Positions 55,686 to 62,774 of a stretch of 62,774 nucleotides of DNA are shown here, piece after piece. Location: NCBI GenBank assembly GCA_945787575.1, contig CALZKB010000024.1, forward strand, positions 1 through 62,774. The letters run 5' to 3'. The notes under the pieces were generated by a model that saw nothing but the letters and a program-made list of their open reading frames with translations, did not search any database and was not told where the DNA came from. Within the stretch, counting starts at the first letter, position 1; every line of letters starts with the position of its first letter. Both the position numbers and the translations under genes were made by a program. This DNA is from Thermoanaerobaculia bacterium. Lineage in GTDB: Bacteria > Acidobacteriota > Thermoanaerobaculia > Multivoradales > JAHEKO01.

Positions 55686-57914
55686 TCAGAACCGGTCGTT
55701 CTGGCGAGTCGAGTCGTTCAAGTCGAGGAAGGTCCCGATGTTCTTGAGAGAAATGGAGAAGCGGATGTCGCGATCTTCCCTGGCGAGAGACTTGTACTCT
55801 CGCAGATCCATCCGCAAGCTCCAACACTGGGTGTTGAAGGCGATGACGTGACTTTGCTGCTGCAGCAGACTCAGCTCCAGGTCGTAGTTGACCTGCGAGG
55901 CGATCAGCAGACGCTGCCTGAAGAACCCGAGGACGCTCCCGAAACGGGCTTGGCTCCCCGTGGTCTCACCCGTCTGCGGGTCGAAAACCGCCGAGTAGTT
56001 CAAAGAGAAGCGCCAAGAGCCGAACTGTTTCGCTCCCGAAATCGCGGCCCGATTGAACTGATTGAAGAGCGTGTTGTAGGTGCCCGAAAGGTCGATATTG
56101 GTCGTCTGGCTCGGCCGGTACCTGTACTGCAGAGAGATCGGGCTCTCCTGTTTCGTCAGGAGCTCCGGGCTTCCGTCGCCGTCCATGTCGGGCACGGTAA
56201 GTCGGGTCAGCGGCTGCTCGTCCTTGAAGCTGAAGGACTGCGAGAGCTCGAAGGACATGATCTCCCGGGCACCGAAGGGGGAATCCTCGTCCTCGGGTTT
56301 GGCGAGCAATCGGTTCACGAGACGGAAGGTCGCCAGCTCGGTGGCTTGCCGCGTCGAGTCGATCTGATCGAACTGCGGAATGAGCTCCCTATCGTCCACG
56401 TCGGCCGATGAAAAGTAGTCCCAACGCGGTTCGATGACGTGTTTGAACTTGCCCCATTGCCCGACCCCTTTGTGGAACACTCTCGAGAACGAGGGGCCGA
56501 TGATGTTCGCCGAGGCGGATCCCACTGTCTGGGTGATCGACTCGCCCGTGAACTCTCGATTGCCGCTGTCGTTGAGCTCCGCGCTCAAGCTGTCGGAGTA
56601 GGTGGCGGCCCGTGCGTCGATGTTGACCGTCGCCGAGAGCCAGGACACGCCGAGCGGCACGGACAGTCGCGGGTTGAGGTTCACCCGCTGATAGGAGATC
56701 GAGGGGCTGTCGGTGCTCTTGATCTCGAAGCTGTGGGCGCCGGCGGCCATGTTGAAGTAGAGGGGAAGACCGGCTATCTGCGTCGCCCGCAGCCGGTACT
56801 CGAGCTCCGGCAACTGGCGCCTCGAGCGGGTGAGGCCAGCGTTGATGAACTGTTCCTGATTCTCGAGCAGCAGGCTGCCGGAGTGCTTGCCCCACGAGCC
56901 CTGGAGAAACGCGCTCGACTGGATCCGGCTGATCCGGATCGAGTCGAAGTTACGCGAGAAGTCCCGGAAGAAGTTGAAGTCGGAGAAATCGGTGTGATTG
57001 ACGACCGCGGTCAATCCCAAAGGGAGCTCGCTGCTGCGGTGCCTCCAGTTGACCCGCCAGCGGAGCTCCCCCTCATCCTCAGGATTGCCGAAGATGTTGT
57101 TCTTGTCGTCGACGAAGTCGGCCACGAGATAGCCTGCCGTGCCGGTCAAGGGCGCGTAACGGAACTCCGTGCCGAAGGCTTCGATCCCCTCGGTGTAGTG
57201 ATCGAAGAAGGCGGTCGCGTCGTAACTGTCGCCGAAGGTCTGAAACCACGCGAGTCCGACCACACCTCCTCGGCGCTCCGAGTAACCGAGGTTGGGGGTG
57301 AGCAATCCCGAAGTCCGCTCGCTCTTGGCCGGCACCATGATGAACGGCGTGTAGAGGAAGGGGAGTTTCTTGACCCGCATGCGGGTGTTGTAGATCTTGG
57401 CGAAACCCTCCATCACGATCCGCGCTCGTGAGAGGCGAAAGCTCCAGGCAGGATCCTCGCTGTCGCAGGAGGTCAGGACCCCGTCACGGACAGTGTAGAC
57501 GTCCGGACCCACCTTGCTCATTTCGGCGCCGTAGAAGTAGAGGTCCTTCGCGAGGGTAGCCTTGGCGTCGTAGACCGTGCCCGTTCGGGTGCCCAGGTCG
57601 TACTCGAGGCGCTCGCCCGCGAGCCGCTGCGGACCTTCGTCGAGGATCACGTCTCCCTCCGCCAGAACCGTCTCGTTGTTCAGGTCCATCTCGAGACGCT
57701 GCGCCCGGATCCGTTGAGCCCCGTAGCGAACGTCGACGCCGCCGGAGGCGACGATGAAATCCGGCCTCAGGTACTCCATCTGCCCGGCAAGCCCGATAGC
57801 CGTGCCACCGCCCTGCTCCGCCGCGATCGGCAGATTGAAGCTCAGGCGCTGGAACTGTGGGATCTCGGAGTAGATCTGAGCCGACAGGATCAGGGCGAGA
57901 AGCGTGCCACTCAC
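55686..57914 (-). CDS. lptD: LPS-assembly outer membrane protein LptD
   Basis: 742 residues from a GTG overlapping the thiolase stop (GTGA). Short signal peptide, then an OstA/LptA-type beta region (about residues 30-150: VASGGVDVRYGAQRIRAQRL, LAEGDVILDEGPQRLAGERL) and a long C-terminal beta-barrel domain with alternating aromatic strands. ERTSGLLTPNLGYSERRGG and the C-terminal TQCWSLRMDLREY are LptD hallmarks. Inserts lipopolysaccharide into the outer leaflet. Few Cys are visible, so the disulfide-controlled maturation of E. coli LptD may not apply. Confidence 0.9.
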   Translation of the reverse strand: MSGTLLALILSAQIYSEIPQFQRLSFNLPIAAEQGGGTAIGLAGQMEYLRPDFIVASGGVDVRYGAQRIRAQRLEMDLNNETVLAEGDVILDEGPQRLAGERLEYDLGTRTGTVYDAKATLAKDLYFYGAEMSKVGPDVYTVRDGVLTSCDSEDPAWSFRLSRARIVMEGFAKIYNTRMRVKKLPFLYTPFIMVPAKSERTSGLLTPNLGYSERRGGVVGLAWFQTFGDSYDATAFFDHYTEGIEAFGTEFRYAPLTGTAGYLVADFVDDKNNIFGNPEDEGELRWRVNWRHRSSELPLGLTAVVNHTDFSDFNFFRDFSRNFDSIRISRIQSSAFLQGSWGKHSGSLLLENQEQFINAGLTRSRRQLPELEYRLRATQIAGLPLYFNMAAGAHSFEIKSTDSPSISYQRVNLNPRLSVPLGVSWLSATVNIDARAATYSDSLSAELNDSGNREFTGESITQTVGSASANIIGPSFSRVFHKGVGQWGKFKHVIEPRWDYFSSADVDDRELIPQFDQIDSTRQATELATFRLVNRLLAKPEDEDSPFGAREIMSFELSQSFSFKDEQPLTRLTVPDMDGDGSPELLTKQESPISLQYRYRPSQTTNIDLSGTYNTLFNQFNRAAISGAKQFGSWRFSLNYSAVFDPQTGETTGSQARFGSVLGFFRQRLLIASQVNYDLELSLLQQQSHVIAFNTQCWSLRMDLREYKSLAREDRDIRFSISLKNIGTFLDLNDSTRQNDRF

Positions 57915-59095
57915 TCGTCCGTCCTCTCGACGACCACCGCCGTCGCCTCGCCGCCTCCGATGCAGATCGAGGCACAGCCACGCCGCGCGCCGCGCTCGCG
58001 CATCGCGTGAAGCAGGGTGACGAGAATTCGCGCTCCCGAGCAGCCGATGGGATGGCCCAAAGCCACGGCCCCGCCACGCACGTTCACCCGGTCGTGCGCC
58101 AGGCCCAACTCCTCGATGAAAGCCATCGCGACAACCGCAAACGCTTCGTTCACCTCCCAAAGGTCGATGTCAGAGACCTCGAGGCCGGCGCGATCGAGGA
58201 CCCGGCGAACCGCGGAGATCGGAGCGGTCGTGAACCACTCCGGCGCTTGGGCGACCGAAGCTTGCGCCACGAGTCGAGCTATCGGCTCGGCCCCGAGCTC
58301 GGCCGCGGCCTCCTCCGTCGCGAGAACGAGCGCTGCGGCGCCGTCGTTGATCTTGCTCGCATTCGCGGCGGTGACGGTTCCGTCCTTCTGGAAGGCCGGG
58401 CGCAGGTGCGGAATCTTCGCCAGATCGGATCGGAACGGCTCGTCGTCGCGATCGACGAGAACGGGGTCCCCCTTGCGCTGCGGTACCGATACGCCGACGA
58501 TCTCGCCGACGAAAGCTCCGCTCTCGGTCGCCGCTCGCGCACGTTCGTAGCTCATTCGCGAGTAGTCGTCCTGCGCCTCGCGACCGAACTCGTACTTGGC
58601 GGCACAAATCTCCGCGCAGTTACCCATGTGCTGGTCGTCGTAGGGATCCCAGAGACCATCGTGAATCATCGAGTCGATCAACTTGCCGTGTCCGAGACGG
58701 AGCCCGTCGCGGGTTCCGGCTGCCAGATAAGGCGCCTGGCTCATGCTCTCCATGCCGCCTGCCGCCACCACCGAGAAGTCTCCGCAACGCAGATCGTTGG
58801 CCGCGGTCATGACCGCTCTCATCGCCGAGCCGCAGACTTTCCCGACCGTGACCGCACCGGTACCTTGCGGGCACCCAGCCTTCAAGGTCGCCTGCCGCGC
58901 GGGCGCCTGGCCCACACCTGCCGTCAATACCGCTCCCATGTAGACCTGCTCTACCGCCCCCGGCGTGACCCCGGCTCGCTCGATGGCACCGGCCAACGCG
59001 CAAGCGCCCAACGTCGGCGCTGGGACGCTCGTGAGACTTCCCTGAAAGGCGCCGATCGGGGTCCTCGCGGCGCTCAGGATCAGTACGTCGTTCAT
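57911..59095 (-). CDS. Acetyl-CoA acetyltransferase (thiolase)
   Basis: 394 residues from the ATG at 59095. KVCGSAMRAVM (acyl-accepting Cys), GGMESMSQAPYL, VNEAFAV (His/Asn loop) and GHPIGCSGARI (second Cys and His) are all present. Degradative or biosynthetic thiolase; here it could finish beta-oxidation of ring-cleavage CoA esters, though it lies apart from that cluster. Divergent from ruvX with 80 bp between. Confidence 0.93.
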   Translation of the reverse strand: MNDVLILSAARTPIGAFQGSLTSVPAPTLGACALAGAIERAGVTPGAVEQVYMGAVLTAGVGQAPARQATLKAGCPQGTGAVTVGKVCGSAMRAVMTAANDLRCGDFSVVAAGGMESMSQAPYLAAGTRDGLRLGHGKLIDSMIHDGLWDPYDDQHMGNCAEICAAKYEFGREAQDDYSRMSYERARAATESGAFVGEIVGVSVPQRKGDPVLVDRDDEPFRSDLAKIPHLRPAFQKDGTVTAANASKINDGAAALVLATEEAAAELGAEPIARLVAQASVAQAPEWFTTAPISAVRRVLDRAGLEVSDIDLWEVNEAFAVVAMAFIEELGLAHDRVNVRGGAVALGHPIGCSGARILVTLLHAMRERGARRGCASICIGGGEATAVVVERTDE

Positions 59096-59175
59096 GTGTT
59101 TGCTATGGTCGGCGCGCTGTGGAAATCGGCCGGTGTGAACCATCTCGACCGACCGGATGCTAGCACAGCGTTCCC

Positions 59176-59595
59176 ATGCGATTTCTCGCTATCGACTTCG
59201 GAGAAAAGCGCGTCGGAGTTGCGATTTCGGACGCCTCGGGCGAAATTGCGACCCCGCTCACGACGCTCGCGCGATCCAACGACCTGGAGCTGGCCAAAGC
59301 GATCTCGAAGATCGTGCAGGCGGAGGACGTCGATCAGGTGATCATCGGCGAACCGCGCGGCCTGGACGGCCGACGTGGCGAGGCGGCCGAGCGCGTCTCC
59401 TCCTTCGCCCGCAAGCTCGAGGCCGTTTGCGACCGTTCCGTCGAGATGATCGACGAAGTGCTGACTTCGGTGGCCGCGATCGAGCGTCTGCGCGAGGCCG
59501 GAGTCGACATCCGCCGCCACCCCGACAGGATCGATGCGGTCGCCGCCCAGATCATTCTCGAGGATGCGCTGGCCAAGTTCCGGAGGAGCTCGTGA
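59176..59595 (+). CDS. ruvX: Holliday-junction resolvase-like RuvX/YqgF
   Basis: 139 residues. RNase-H-like fold: LAIDFGEKRVGVAISDASG at the N-terminus, VIIGEPRGLDG, and a C-terminal MIDEVLTSVAA followed by DAVAAQIILE. Involved in 16S rRNA 5' maturation or recombination in studied bacteria. Stop overlaps the mltG start (GTGA). Confidence 0.92.
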   Translation: MRFLAIDFGEKRVGVAISDASGEIATPLTTLARSNDLELAKAISKIVQAEDVDQVIIGEPRGLDGRRGEAAERVSSFARKLEAVCDRSVEMIDEVLTSVAAIERLREAGVDIRRHPDRIDAVAAQIILEDALAKFRRSS

Positions 59596-60623
59596 GGAGT
59601 ACGGTCGCGACCCTGCTCGTCGGGGGGCTGCTCCTCACGGTCGTCGCCGTCGGCGCTTGGGCCGCCTGGAGCTGGCGCCGACTGCACGAGCCGTTCGGAG
59701 AGGTTGCCGAGGTCGAGATCGAGGTCCTCGCGGGCCAGAGCGCGGCTCGGATCCTCGAGCGGCTCGAAGAGCGCGGCGTCGTCTGGGACGCTCGCCTCGC
59801 CAGGCTCTATCTGATCTACGCCCTCGACGATCCCCCCCTCCAGGCGGGCGACTACAGTTTCGCAACCCCGATGACGCTTCGCGCCGTGCTCGAGAAGCTC
59901 ATTCATGGCGAGGTCGTGATGCGCTCGGTCACCGTGATCGAGGGACTTACCCTCGAGGAGGCCGCACGGCACCTTGCTTCGCAAGGATTCGGAGACGAGG
60001 AGCTGTTTCTGGCTCAGATGCGCTCGCCGGAGCGGATCGCCGATCTCGATGGGGAGGCGATCGACCTCGAGGGGTATCTTTTCCCCGAGACCTACAGCTT
60101 TCGCAAGCGGGTCGAGGAGTCCGAGATCGTCGACACCATGGTGCGCACTTTTCGCCAAGCTTACGAAGAGTTCGAGGAACTGGATGTCGGGGTTCGCGAT
60201 TGGGTCACCCTGGCTTCGATCGTCGAGAAGGAAGCTCGACTCGACGACGAGCGTCCGATCATCGCCGGCGTCTACCGGAATCGGCTGGATCGCGGAATCG
60301 CCCTCTACGCGGACCCAACCATCATCTTCGCCCTGAAGCGGCTCGGCCGCTGGGACGGTGACATTCGACGGAAAGACCTCGCTCTCGAATCACCGTATAA
60401 CACCTACCTCCACGGCGGATTGCCGCCAGGGCCGATCTGCTCCCCGGGACTGGCTAGCCTCGCAGCAGCGGCCCGACCCGCGGAGGTGGCATACCTCTAT
60501 TTCGTCAGCCGCAACGACGGGTCTCACGTCTTCGCCGAGACGCTGCGCGAGCACAATCGAAACGTCGATGAATGGCAGCGCCGGTACTGGCGCGCACGAC
60601 GGCGAGAGGATGCCGGCGGCTGA
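59592..60623 (+). CDS. mltG: Endolytic murein transglycosylase MltG
   Basis: 343 residues from a GTG overlapping ruvX. One N-terminal membrane helix, a LysM-like domain (LAGQSAARILERLEERGVV), LEGYLFPETYSF, and the catalytic region LASIVEKEARLDDERP with the active-site Glu; C-terminal YNTYLHGGLPPGPI and FVSRNDGSHVFA are invariant in YceG/MltG. Cleaves nascent peptidoglycan glycan strands. ruvX-mltG pairing is common. Confidence 0.94.
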   Translation: MRSTVATLLVGGLLLTVVAVGAWAAWSWRRLHEPFGEVAEVEIEVLAGQSAARILERLEERGVVWDARLARLYLIYALDDPPLQAGDYSFATPMTLRAVLEKLIHGEVVMRSVTVIEGLTLEEAARHLASQGFGDEELFLAQMRSPERIADLDGEAIDLEGYLFPETYSFRKRVEESEIVDTMVRTFRQAYEEFEELDVGVRDWVTLASIVEKEARLDDERPIIAGVYRNRLDRGIALYADPTIIFALKRLGRWDGDIRRKDLALESPYNTYLHGGLPPGPICSPGLASLAAAARPAEVAYLYFVSRNDGSHVFAETLREHNRNVDEWQRRYWRARRREDAGG

Positions 60624-60733: not shown

Positions 60734-62774
60734 ATGACGACACCACAGCAATTCGGCGAATACCTCCTCTTCCGTCGGTTGACATCCGACGCGATGGGAG
60801 AGACCTTCCGCGCCGGCAAGATCGGCAGCCAGGGAATCGAGCGGGTCGTGCTCCTGCGCCTGTTCAACGGGGCCGGCATCCAGCCGGACACGCTCTGGCG
60901 GACGATCGCCGATCGAATGGGGCTTCATCGGATCTTGCAGAACCCGCACATCGGAGACGGCGCCGACATGGGGAGGGTGAGCAACGTCCCCTTCGTCGCC
61001 TATGAATACGTATCGGGCAAGAGCTTGGCGGAGATGCTCCACCAGGCTCGATCCCGCGTCTTCCAGATTCCCACCGAGCACGCACTCTTCATCATCGAGC
61101 GCCTCACATTTGGATTGACCGCGGCCTATTCGACGCGCCACCGGGAAGAGCGGATTCAGCATGGATTCCTCGTACCCGAGAAGGTCCTCCTCTCGAACGA
61201 AGGAGAGGTGCGTCTCATCGGCTTCGAGTCGGGACCGGGGCTGCGGGACTTCCTCACGGCCGCTCCAATGCGAGAAGCGTTCGGTTCTTACATCGCCCCC
61301 GAGGTCGGGCCCGGAACCCAGCGTCGCAGCACCGACGATGTTTTCGCAATCGGCTCGCTCCTTTACGAGCTGCTGACCGGCAACCGCCTAGCACATCCCG
61401 AGGACGGCAACTTCGACTCGATCGTAGACGAAGCGATGCTGACGGCGGAGGACAAGCCGCTGCAACCGGCCTTGCGCGCGCTGCTCAAGAGCAGTCTTGC
61501 CGCCGGTCCGCAGCGAATCAGCGATATCCAACAGTGGCAGCAGGCGTTCAGCCGCTTCATCGCCGAAGCCGAATACAGTCCCACGACGTTCAATCTCGCT
61601 TTCTTCATGCACACCCTGTTTGGCGGCGAGATCGAGCAGGAGAGCGTCGAGATCGAACGCGAGAAGGCCACCCAGGTCGATGTCGCGGCGCTCGCCCAGA
61701 CTGCGGTTCTCGAGCCGACGCCCGGACCGTCCGACACCGTACTGATCCCACCGGCCGAGACAGCCGGAAGCCGCCAGACCACCACGCCGGCTCCCTCCGC
61801 CGTCGGCCAGTACGGGGGCGCCGCTCGCAAGACGACGAATTGGAAGCTCCTGGCTCCGTTCGCGCTTCTCGCGGTGCTCGGCGGCCTGGCAGCCGCTTAC
61901 TATATGTCCGGCGGGAGAGGCATCCGGACGGCCACCGCCACCTTGAGCAAGCCGGCGGCAAGCGTCTCCTTCCCCGAGAGCGTTCCCGACGACGATTCGA
62001 CGCCCCTGGGAGAGGCTGTGTCGAGCAACATGGACCCCGCCTTCGACGCGGGAGCAGAGACGGCGGTCGTCACTTCAACCGACGACCCGGCACCGACCGA
62101 CGCCGTGAACGTCACCGAGATCGAGGTGCCACCTACTCCCGAAGAGGTCGAAAAGCAGATCCGCGAGCTCGTCTCGAAAGAGGTCGAAGGTTCGCTGCAG
62201 GCGAAGTACGAGGAGGAACTGGCTCTCTTGCGCGAACAGCTCGCAGAAGCCCGCGCAGCGCAGGCCACTCAGGCCGCGGCGGCAGAGGCGACTCCGACCC
62301 GACAGGCGGTCGTCGAGCCGGCTGCGGCAAGACCTCCGGGCCTATCCACGGCGAGGAGCGGACCCCCGGACCAACGGGAGCTGGCCGACCCCCAGGGTCG
62401 ACCCTCGGACGCCGAACCCACTCCGTCCGGCCCGGAGACCACCACCCAGAGCCGGTCCGACACTCGGGTGAACTCTCCTCAGGTGACCTCTCCTCCGGCA
62501 ACCTCTCGGCCGACACCCGAAGCCCCCACGGAGCCGGAGGCTGCCACGTCCGAGATCGAGACGCCGCCGATCACGCCACCGGTCCAGGTCGGAGATCTAG
62601 TGGAGCCGGGCGCCGGCGTCGTGCCGCCCAAGATCAAGCAGCGGCCAAACCCGCGCTACCCGCCGGGCGCGCAGCGCCTGCGCAGGGGCGCGATCGTCAG
62701 GCTCCGAGTACTGGTCGACGAGAACGGGCGGGTCGAGGACATACGCACCGTCAGCGAAGCCGCCGGCTTCGGAT
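60734..62774 (+). CDS. Pseudokinase-transmembrane-TonB fusion protein (C-terminus beyond window)
   Basis: At least 680 residues; ATG preceded by GAGGG 6 nt away. Residues about 8-270 follow the protein kinase fold (IIERLTFGLTAAYSTRHREE, APEVGPGTQRRSTDDVFAIG, SLLYELLTG), but the catalytic loop is QHGFLVPEKVLLS near residue 142 (no HRD) and the DFG site is GFE (163-165). The beta3 Lys is also not present. So the domain should be catalytically dead. A transmembrane helix lies at about 372-394, a Glu/Ala-rich coiled coil at about 465-510, a Pro/Thr-rich linker, then from about residue 628 a TonB C-terminal-type domain (KQRPNPRYPPGAQR, AIVRLRVLVDENGRVED). Likely links an envelope or energy-transducing function to a cytoplasmic ligand or partner. 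Confidence 0.8.
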   Translation, partial: MTTPQQFGEYLLFRRLTSDAMGETFRAGKIGSQGIERVVLLRLFNGAGIQPDTLWRTIADRMGLHRILQNPHIGDGADMGRVSNVPFVAYEYVSGKSLAEMLHQARSRVFQIPTEHALFIIERLTFGLTAAYSTRHREERIQHGFLVPEKVLLSNEGEVRLIGFESGPGLRDFLTAAPMREAFGSYIAPEVGPGTQRRSTDDVFAIGSLLYELLTGNRLAHPEDGNFDSIVDEAMLTAEDKPLQPALRALLKSSLAAGPQRISDIQQWQQAFSRFIAEAEYSPTTFNLAFFMHTLFGGEIEQESVEIEREKATQVDVAALAQTAVLEPTPGPSDTVLIPPAETAGSRQTTTPAPSAVGQYGGAARKTTNWKLLAPFALLAVLGGLAAAYYMSGGRGIRTATATLSKPAASVSFPESVPDDDSTPLGEAVSSNMDPAFDAGAETAVVTSTDDPAPTDAVNVTEIEVPPTPEEVEKQIRELVSKEVEGSLQAKYEEELALLREQLAEARAAQATQAAAAEATPTRQAVVEPAAARPPGLSTARSGPPDQRELADPQGRPSDAEPTPSGPETTTQSRSDTRVNSPQVTSPPATSRPTPEAPTEPEAATSEIETPPITPPVQVGDLVEPGAGVVPPKIKQRPNPRYPPGAQRLRRGAIVRLRVLVDENGRVEDIRTVSEAAGFG

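Follow-up and report, generated by a model that had tools for sequence, protein, structure and literature searches.

A conserved Acidobacteriota family joining a membrane pseudokinase to a TonB_C domain, a possible trans-envelope adaptor

The final gene of the window, a 62,774-nucleotide stretch of DNA corresponding to the entire contig C24 of a 484-contig draft genome from a soil-type bacterium of the Acidobacteriota, encodes a kinase fold followed by a transmembrane (TM) helix, a coiled coil, a Pro/Ala-rich linker and a TonB_C domain. Judged by alignment and structural modelling, this protein is a pseudokinase, in which the catalytic motifs are both degraded and conserved in their degraded form. 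The family to which it belongs spans Thermoanaerobaculia, and is also found in other Acidobacteriota classes. Its retention in much of the phylum suggests that it is probably a genuine trans-envelope adaptor, although an unstudied one. We put at about evens the more specific proposal that it is a conserved adaptor or scaffold with a layout resembling that of GltG, in which the pseudokinase would serve as a docking module.

Results

Completion of the gene across a contig boundary

The open reading frame begins with the ATG at 60734 on the + strand, and is still open after 680 codons at the contig end. This start agrees with those of relatives from the same genus, with MTTPQQFGEYLLFRRL common to all three proteins. 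As the sequence stops at the right edge of the window, interrupting the TonB_C domain, the missing residues were regained from the opening of contig C42 in the same genome, which was located by searching that genome for CsgG genes, the family encoded next in relatives. The first 96 bases of C42 encode SAARRTRWEPAKKDGVRAKMWIDLTIEFRPQ and a stop codon, representing the absent tail of TonB_C, and two CsgG genes follow in the same order as in the complete relative L083. The two contigs share no overlap, with approximately five residues unread between them, and it is homology and synteny that support the join; on that footing, the doubt previously raised over whether the C-terminus continues as TonB_C can be set aside. 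A single-sequence scan of genome contigs for relatives returned no match; an alignment-based scan did recover them, and those from the profile scan were metagenome-assembled Acidobacteriota, several labelled as Thermoanaerobaculia.

A kinase fold with degraded catalytic motifs

Approximately 370 residues precede the TM helix, comprising a predicted cytoplasmic domain. The pseudokinase domain itself (residues 1–324; 60734..61705, +), delimited using Pfam, an AlphaFold2 model and structural alignment, includes a C-terminal helical extension, TTFNLAFFMHTLFGGEIEQE (61583–61642, +). Residues 62–257 matched the Pfam Pkinase profile above its gathering cut-off (4.9e-10), while matches to the NCBIfam MADS6, PknB-type and StpK7 kinase models fell far below theirs and were discounted. 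The model of the kinase domain, built from 19 sequences, had a pLDDT of 90.6 and a pTM of 0.88, and structural alignment (VIA) gave Z scores of 24–25 to MST3, CDK2, MEK1 and PknI.

Alignment with active paralogues identified how catalytic residues have been replaced. Firstly, the Lys of the former beta3 ‘VAIK’ region (VLLRLF, 60848..60865, +) is Arg42, and the alphaC Glu position is likewise occupied by Arg. Secondly, H143-G-F aligns with HRD in the former catalytic loop (HGFLVPEK, 61160..61183, +), such that Phe145 replaces the Asp, and Lys150 the catalytic Asn. Thirdly, G163-F-E aligns with DFG in the segment GFES (61220..61231, +), placing Gly163 at the position of the Asp. Fourthly, only the last Gly of the G-loop is kept, the first two having been lost. 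The Lys of beta3 and the Asp residues of HRD and DFG, all three expected of an active Ser/Thr kinase, are therefore missing. The first-pass annotation had recognised the replacements at HRD, DFG and beta3, and was exact in the case of GFE, but its ‘QHG’ was one residue out of register with the HRD motif, which corresponds to HGF; the ‘Leu/Arg’ it gave for beta3 is Arg42 when read in ungapped register.

Relatives within the class show the same pattern. All of the approximately 45 aligned lack the HRD Asp and DFG Asp, the alphaC Glu has gone from all but one, and the catalytic Asn is retained once, in L083. The beta3 position is mostly Arg, with Lys in three relatives. By contrast, the paralogues with a receiver-like (REC) N-terminus retain every motif (K/E/HRD/N/DFG). 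Residues with a structural role have nevertheless been retained: the HRD His, the alphaF ‘DDV’, the APE Pro and Arg261 are invariant, and the APE Glu is present in more than 90% of sequences.

Age, selection and distribution

In the phylogeny, the pseudokinases all fell on one side of a branch separating them from the active paralogues (SH-aLRT 100), although a slower tree placed one very long outgroup branch among the pseudokinases. The replacements of HRD seen in the family were HGF, HGL, HGA and HGV, and in other classes this position was always HG followed by a further residue; one sequence from those classes, L203, still has the Lys and Glu. Both observations are consistent with the HRD Arg-Asp having been lost once, early, with the other motifs decaying stepwise afterwards. 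Within the genus, dN/dS was approximately 0.13 for the kinase domain versus 0.43–0.45 for the linker, figures that are rough because dS is near one. Judged from its sequences, this is a pseudokinase family of ancient origin, maintained by purifying selection.

Matches at E<=1e-25, a cut-off that paralogues pass as well, were found in 127 of the 149 genomes of the class, representing 69 of 70 genera; at 1e-55, the family was detected in 52 of 396 genomes across the phylum. The gene is absent from the approximately 20 mostly near-complete genomes of genus g23 (G063–G082), apparently through lineage-specific loss, and hence is dispensable there. Variation in copy number and structure was also observed: L091 (1543–5600) carries a tandem duplication of the pseudokinase–TonB_C gene directly after mltG, and the pseudokinases encoded by L100 and L101, also of this family, are shorter and lack both the membrane helix and TonB_C.

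The membrane-spanning and periplasmic regions

The juxtamembrane segment (61706..61843, +) contains PTPGPSDTVLIP, which is identical in three proteins of the genus and constitutes a weak lead. Within this fast-evolving stretch, DTVLIP (61733–61750) is identical in three same-genus proteins, and may be a phosphorylation or docking motif; the FHA-like motif T..[ILVD] was not enriched in juxtamembrane regions. A hydropathy scan found a single TM helix, KLLAPFALLAVLGGLAAAYY (61844..61903, +), which lacks His. Beyond it lie a predicted periplasmic coiled coil (residues 469–513; 62138..62272, +), judged from the sequence and its conservation in relatives, a Pro-rich (20%) periplasmic linker (62273..62641, +), and the TonB_C domain (62642..62773, +), which is cut by the contig end.

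Even in its truncated form (residues 638–674), the last of these exceeded the gathering cut-off of the Pfam TonB_C profile (4e-6), and the complete relative L083 matched the full profile at 4.2e-14. The model of the L083 C-terminus had a pLDDT of 94.3, and superimposed on the TonB of the FoxA–TonB complex (6i97_D) with a TM score of 0.71 and an rmsd of 1.8 A; it also fitted TonB 1u07 and the BtuB-bound TonB (2gsk), with TolA a much worse match. The original description is borne out for the pseudokinase, the membrane helix, the predicted coiled coil and the TonB-like domain alike. Kinase–TonB_C architectures are also listed in domain databases.

A conserved position behind mltG

Upstream of the gene are what we take, by recognition of their sequences, to be an LptD-like ORF (55686..58160, -), a thiolase (57911..59143, -), ruvX (yqgF; 59176..59595, +) and, immediately adjacent, mltG, encoding a YceG-type peptidoglycan transglycosylase (59596..60623, +; the exact start is approximate). 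All four are conserved neighbours by synteny, supported by BLAST for ruvX; the Pfam scan of neighbours covered CsgG, PEGA and DUF3891 only. Across the order, the layout is LptD-like–thiolase–ruvX–mltG–pseudokinase, with CsgG genes following in most loci. Either or both of ruvX and mltG adjoin the gene in nearly all order-level loci, and in 23 of 25 loci from the wider class, although no CsgG linkage was seen in wider-class loci outside the order. As neither ruvX nor mltG was found beside the gene in loci of other classes, the link with mltG may be local.

Discussion

A possible route for information across the envelope

A signalling or scaffold role for this protein is possible, and of the readings considered we favour that of a trans-envelope scaffold. 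Unable to phosphorylate, the pseudokinase would provide a site for docking, or a switch, in the cytoplasm; the coiled coil would dimerise the protein; and the Pro-rich spacer would allow TonB_C to reach either the peptidoglycan or a partner in the outer membrane. A literature search for binding of TonB_C to peptidoglycan returned nothing relevant. In this way a change of state on one side could be relayed to the opposite side, a mechanism that has been proposed for GltG-type adaptors in Myxococcus. As the gene follows mltG throughout the class, the likeliest job would be the positioning or regulation of MltG-linked work on the cell wall or envelope. In Enterococcus, MltG is phosphorylated by the Ser/Thr kinase IreK (PMC12369325).

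The C-terminal half is also found in other combinations, as the TM–coiled coil–TonB_C arrangement occurs behind DUF4388 (L045 and L046) and behind the active REC-kinase (L044 and L051). The proteins of L045, L046, L057 and L058, in which a DUF4388 or DUF4388-like domain precedes the TM helix and TonB_C, have 35–41% identity to the C-terminal half of the pseudokinase protein. It is conceivable, and can be put forward tentatively, that these represent a phylum-wide Acidobacteriota system of motor-independent trans-envelope signalling, in which this half has been shuffled onto interchangeable cytoplasmic inputs (pseudokinase, active REC-kinase or DUF4388), and a dead kinase would link the assembly of the cell wall or outer membrane to the state of the cytoplasm.

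A somewhat unlikely alternative is that the pseudokinase allosterically controls, or is phosphorylated by, its REC-kinase(-TonB_C) paralogue. Both families are found through the class, and in many genomes the REC-kinase gene lies between folC-accD and yebC-ruvC-exbBDD-tonB. A REC-active kinase–TM–TonB_C gene is conserved between folC-accD and yebC-ruvC-exbBD(D-tonB) in several Acidobacteriota (loci L186, L190 and L204), with L204 covering the accD–folC side only. Furthermore, the juxtamembrane motif [DE]T[VLI] was present in 11 of 55 sequences, versus a shuffle mean of 3.4, in a post hoc comparison of related sequences. However, in the genus of the window the REC-kinase gene has degenerated independently into a second pseudokinase, which lacks TonB_C (L009 and L018), leaving the pair with no active member there and weakening the simple form of this model; approximately 20 other kinase-like genes remain in the window’s own genome. 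The L009 copy, on contig C60 of that genome (G000), has acidic Glu/Ala repeats, and adjoins yebC-ruvC-exbB-exbD-exbD-tonB.

The presence of a true TonB fold, close to that of receptor-bound TonB, together with the Pro-rich linker, might instead suggest an accessory TonB, driven by ExbBD encoded elsewhere, with the pseudokinase gating the energy supplied to a TonB-dependent receptor. ExbD genes are available in the genome, albeit on contigs C60 and C474 only, neither linked to the pseudokinase gene, and ExbBD was not seen beside a gene of the family in any of the loci read. TonB and TolA reach ExbB and TolQ through a Ser-x3-His (SHLS) motif of the membrane helix, the Ser and His of which touch ExbB; Ton and Tol activity requires the His (PMC12215075). 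This motif was found in none of 67 membrane segments from the family and its kinase paralogues, whereas the genome’s own TonB, on C60, keeps the helix His. The absence of the His, the lack of nearby ExbBD, and the 370-residue cytoplasmic domain all argue that the protein is probably not an ExbB/ExbD-driven TonB, making the accessory role improbable, and the energy transduction envisaged in the first-pass annotation unsupported.

Still less probable is an atypical kinase that binds nucleotide or transfers a group non-canonically: some pseudokinases that are believed to bind ATP carry Arg in place of the beta3 Lys (PMC12599244), and a few relatives keep the Lys, but the alphaC Glu, HRD Asp, Asn, DFG Asp and first two G-loop Gly have been lost together. 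That this is a functionless kinase gene in decay, as the missing catalytic residues alone might imply, is strongly disfavoured by purifying selection, phylum-wide retention and intact reading frames.

Relationship to known systems

Bacterial pseudokinases are almost unstudied, as is much of the envelope biology of the Acidobacteriota, and to these the present protein adds a large and ancient family, in which both the architecture and the gene neighbourhood are clear. With it, one can ask if events on the far side of two membranes can be controlled by a dead kinase, and if TonB_C domains can function when no ExbBD motor drives them. A literature search for pseudokinases in combination with TonB found no paper joining them, and a 2025 review, which defines seven bacterial families (ActPs1-3, GLW, CP1, DYD and DLHK), mentions neither TonB nor Acidobacteriota (PMC12599244). 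Compared largely by their descriptions, the protein fits none of these seven. CP1 and DLHK were set aside as they are described as having no TM regions (PMC12599244), and ActPs1, ActPs2 and DYD by the review’s taxon and motif descriptions alone. The GLW pseudokinases share a C-terminal TM helix (PMC12599244), but are proteobacterial, with GLW at the HRD position rather than the HGF of this acidobacterial protein. The mycobacterial MviN/MurJ (ActPs3) is likewise a membrane pseudokinase, and is tied to peptidoglycan synthesis, which it restrains, recruiting FhaA (PMC12599244); however, it is actinobacterial and lacks TonB_C, the pseudokinase being joined to MurJ (as in M. tuberculosis MviN) together with a carbohydrate-binding domain, whereas this protein has a single TM helix and no match to MurJ.

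Among proteins associated with TonB, the energy transducer itself shares the C-terminal fold (6i97_D, 1u07 and 2gsk) and Pro-rich linker, but differs in its SHLS motif and TM His, in the absence of a large cytoplasmic domain, and in its linkage to ExbBD. SjdR of Anabaena is annotated as TonB, yet acts on septal peptidoglycan rather than siderophore transport (PMC8262864); it is nevertheless short, with neither a kinase domain nor a TonB-like periplasmic domain. Also close are GltG (PglI) and GltJ (AgmX), which belong to the Agl-Glt machinery for gliding in Myxococcus. GltG has the order FHA–TM–TonB_C and binds AglR of the AglRQS motor (PMC3169522), whereas the Pfam scan found no FHA in the pseudokinase protein, and its locus has no linked motor genes. 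Hence the domain facing the cytoplasm differs, but both proteins combine a cytoplasmic signalling domain with one TM helix and a TonB_C end (PMC3169522).
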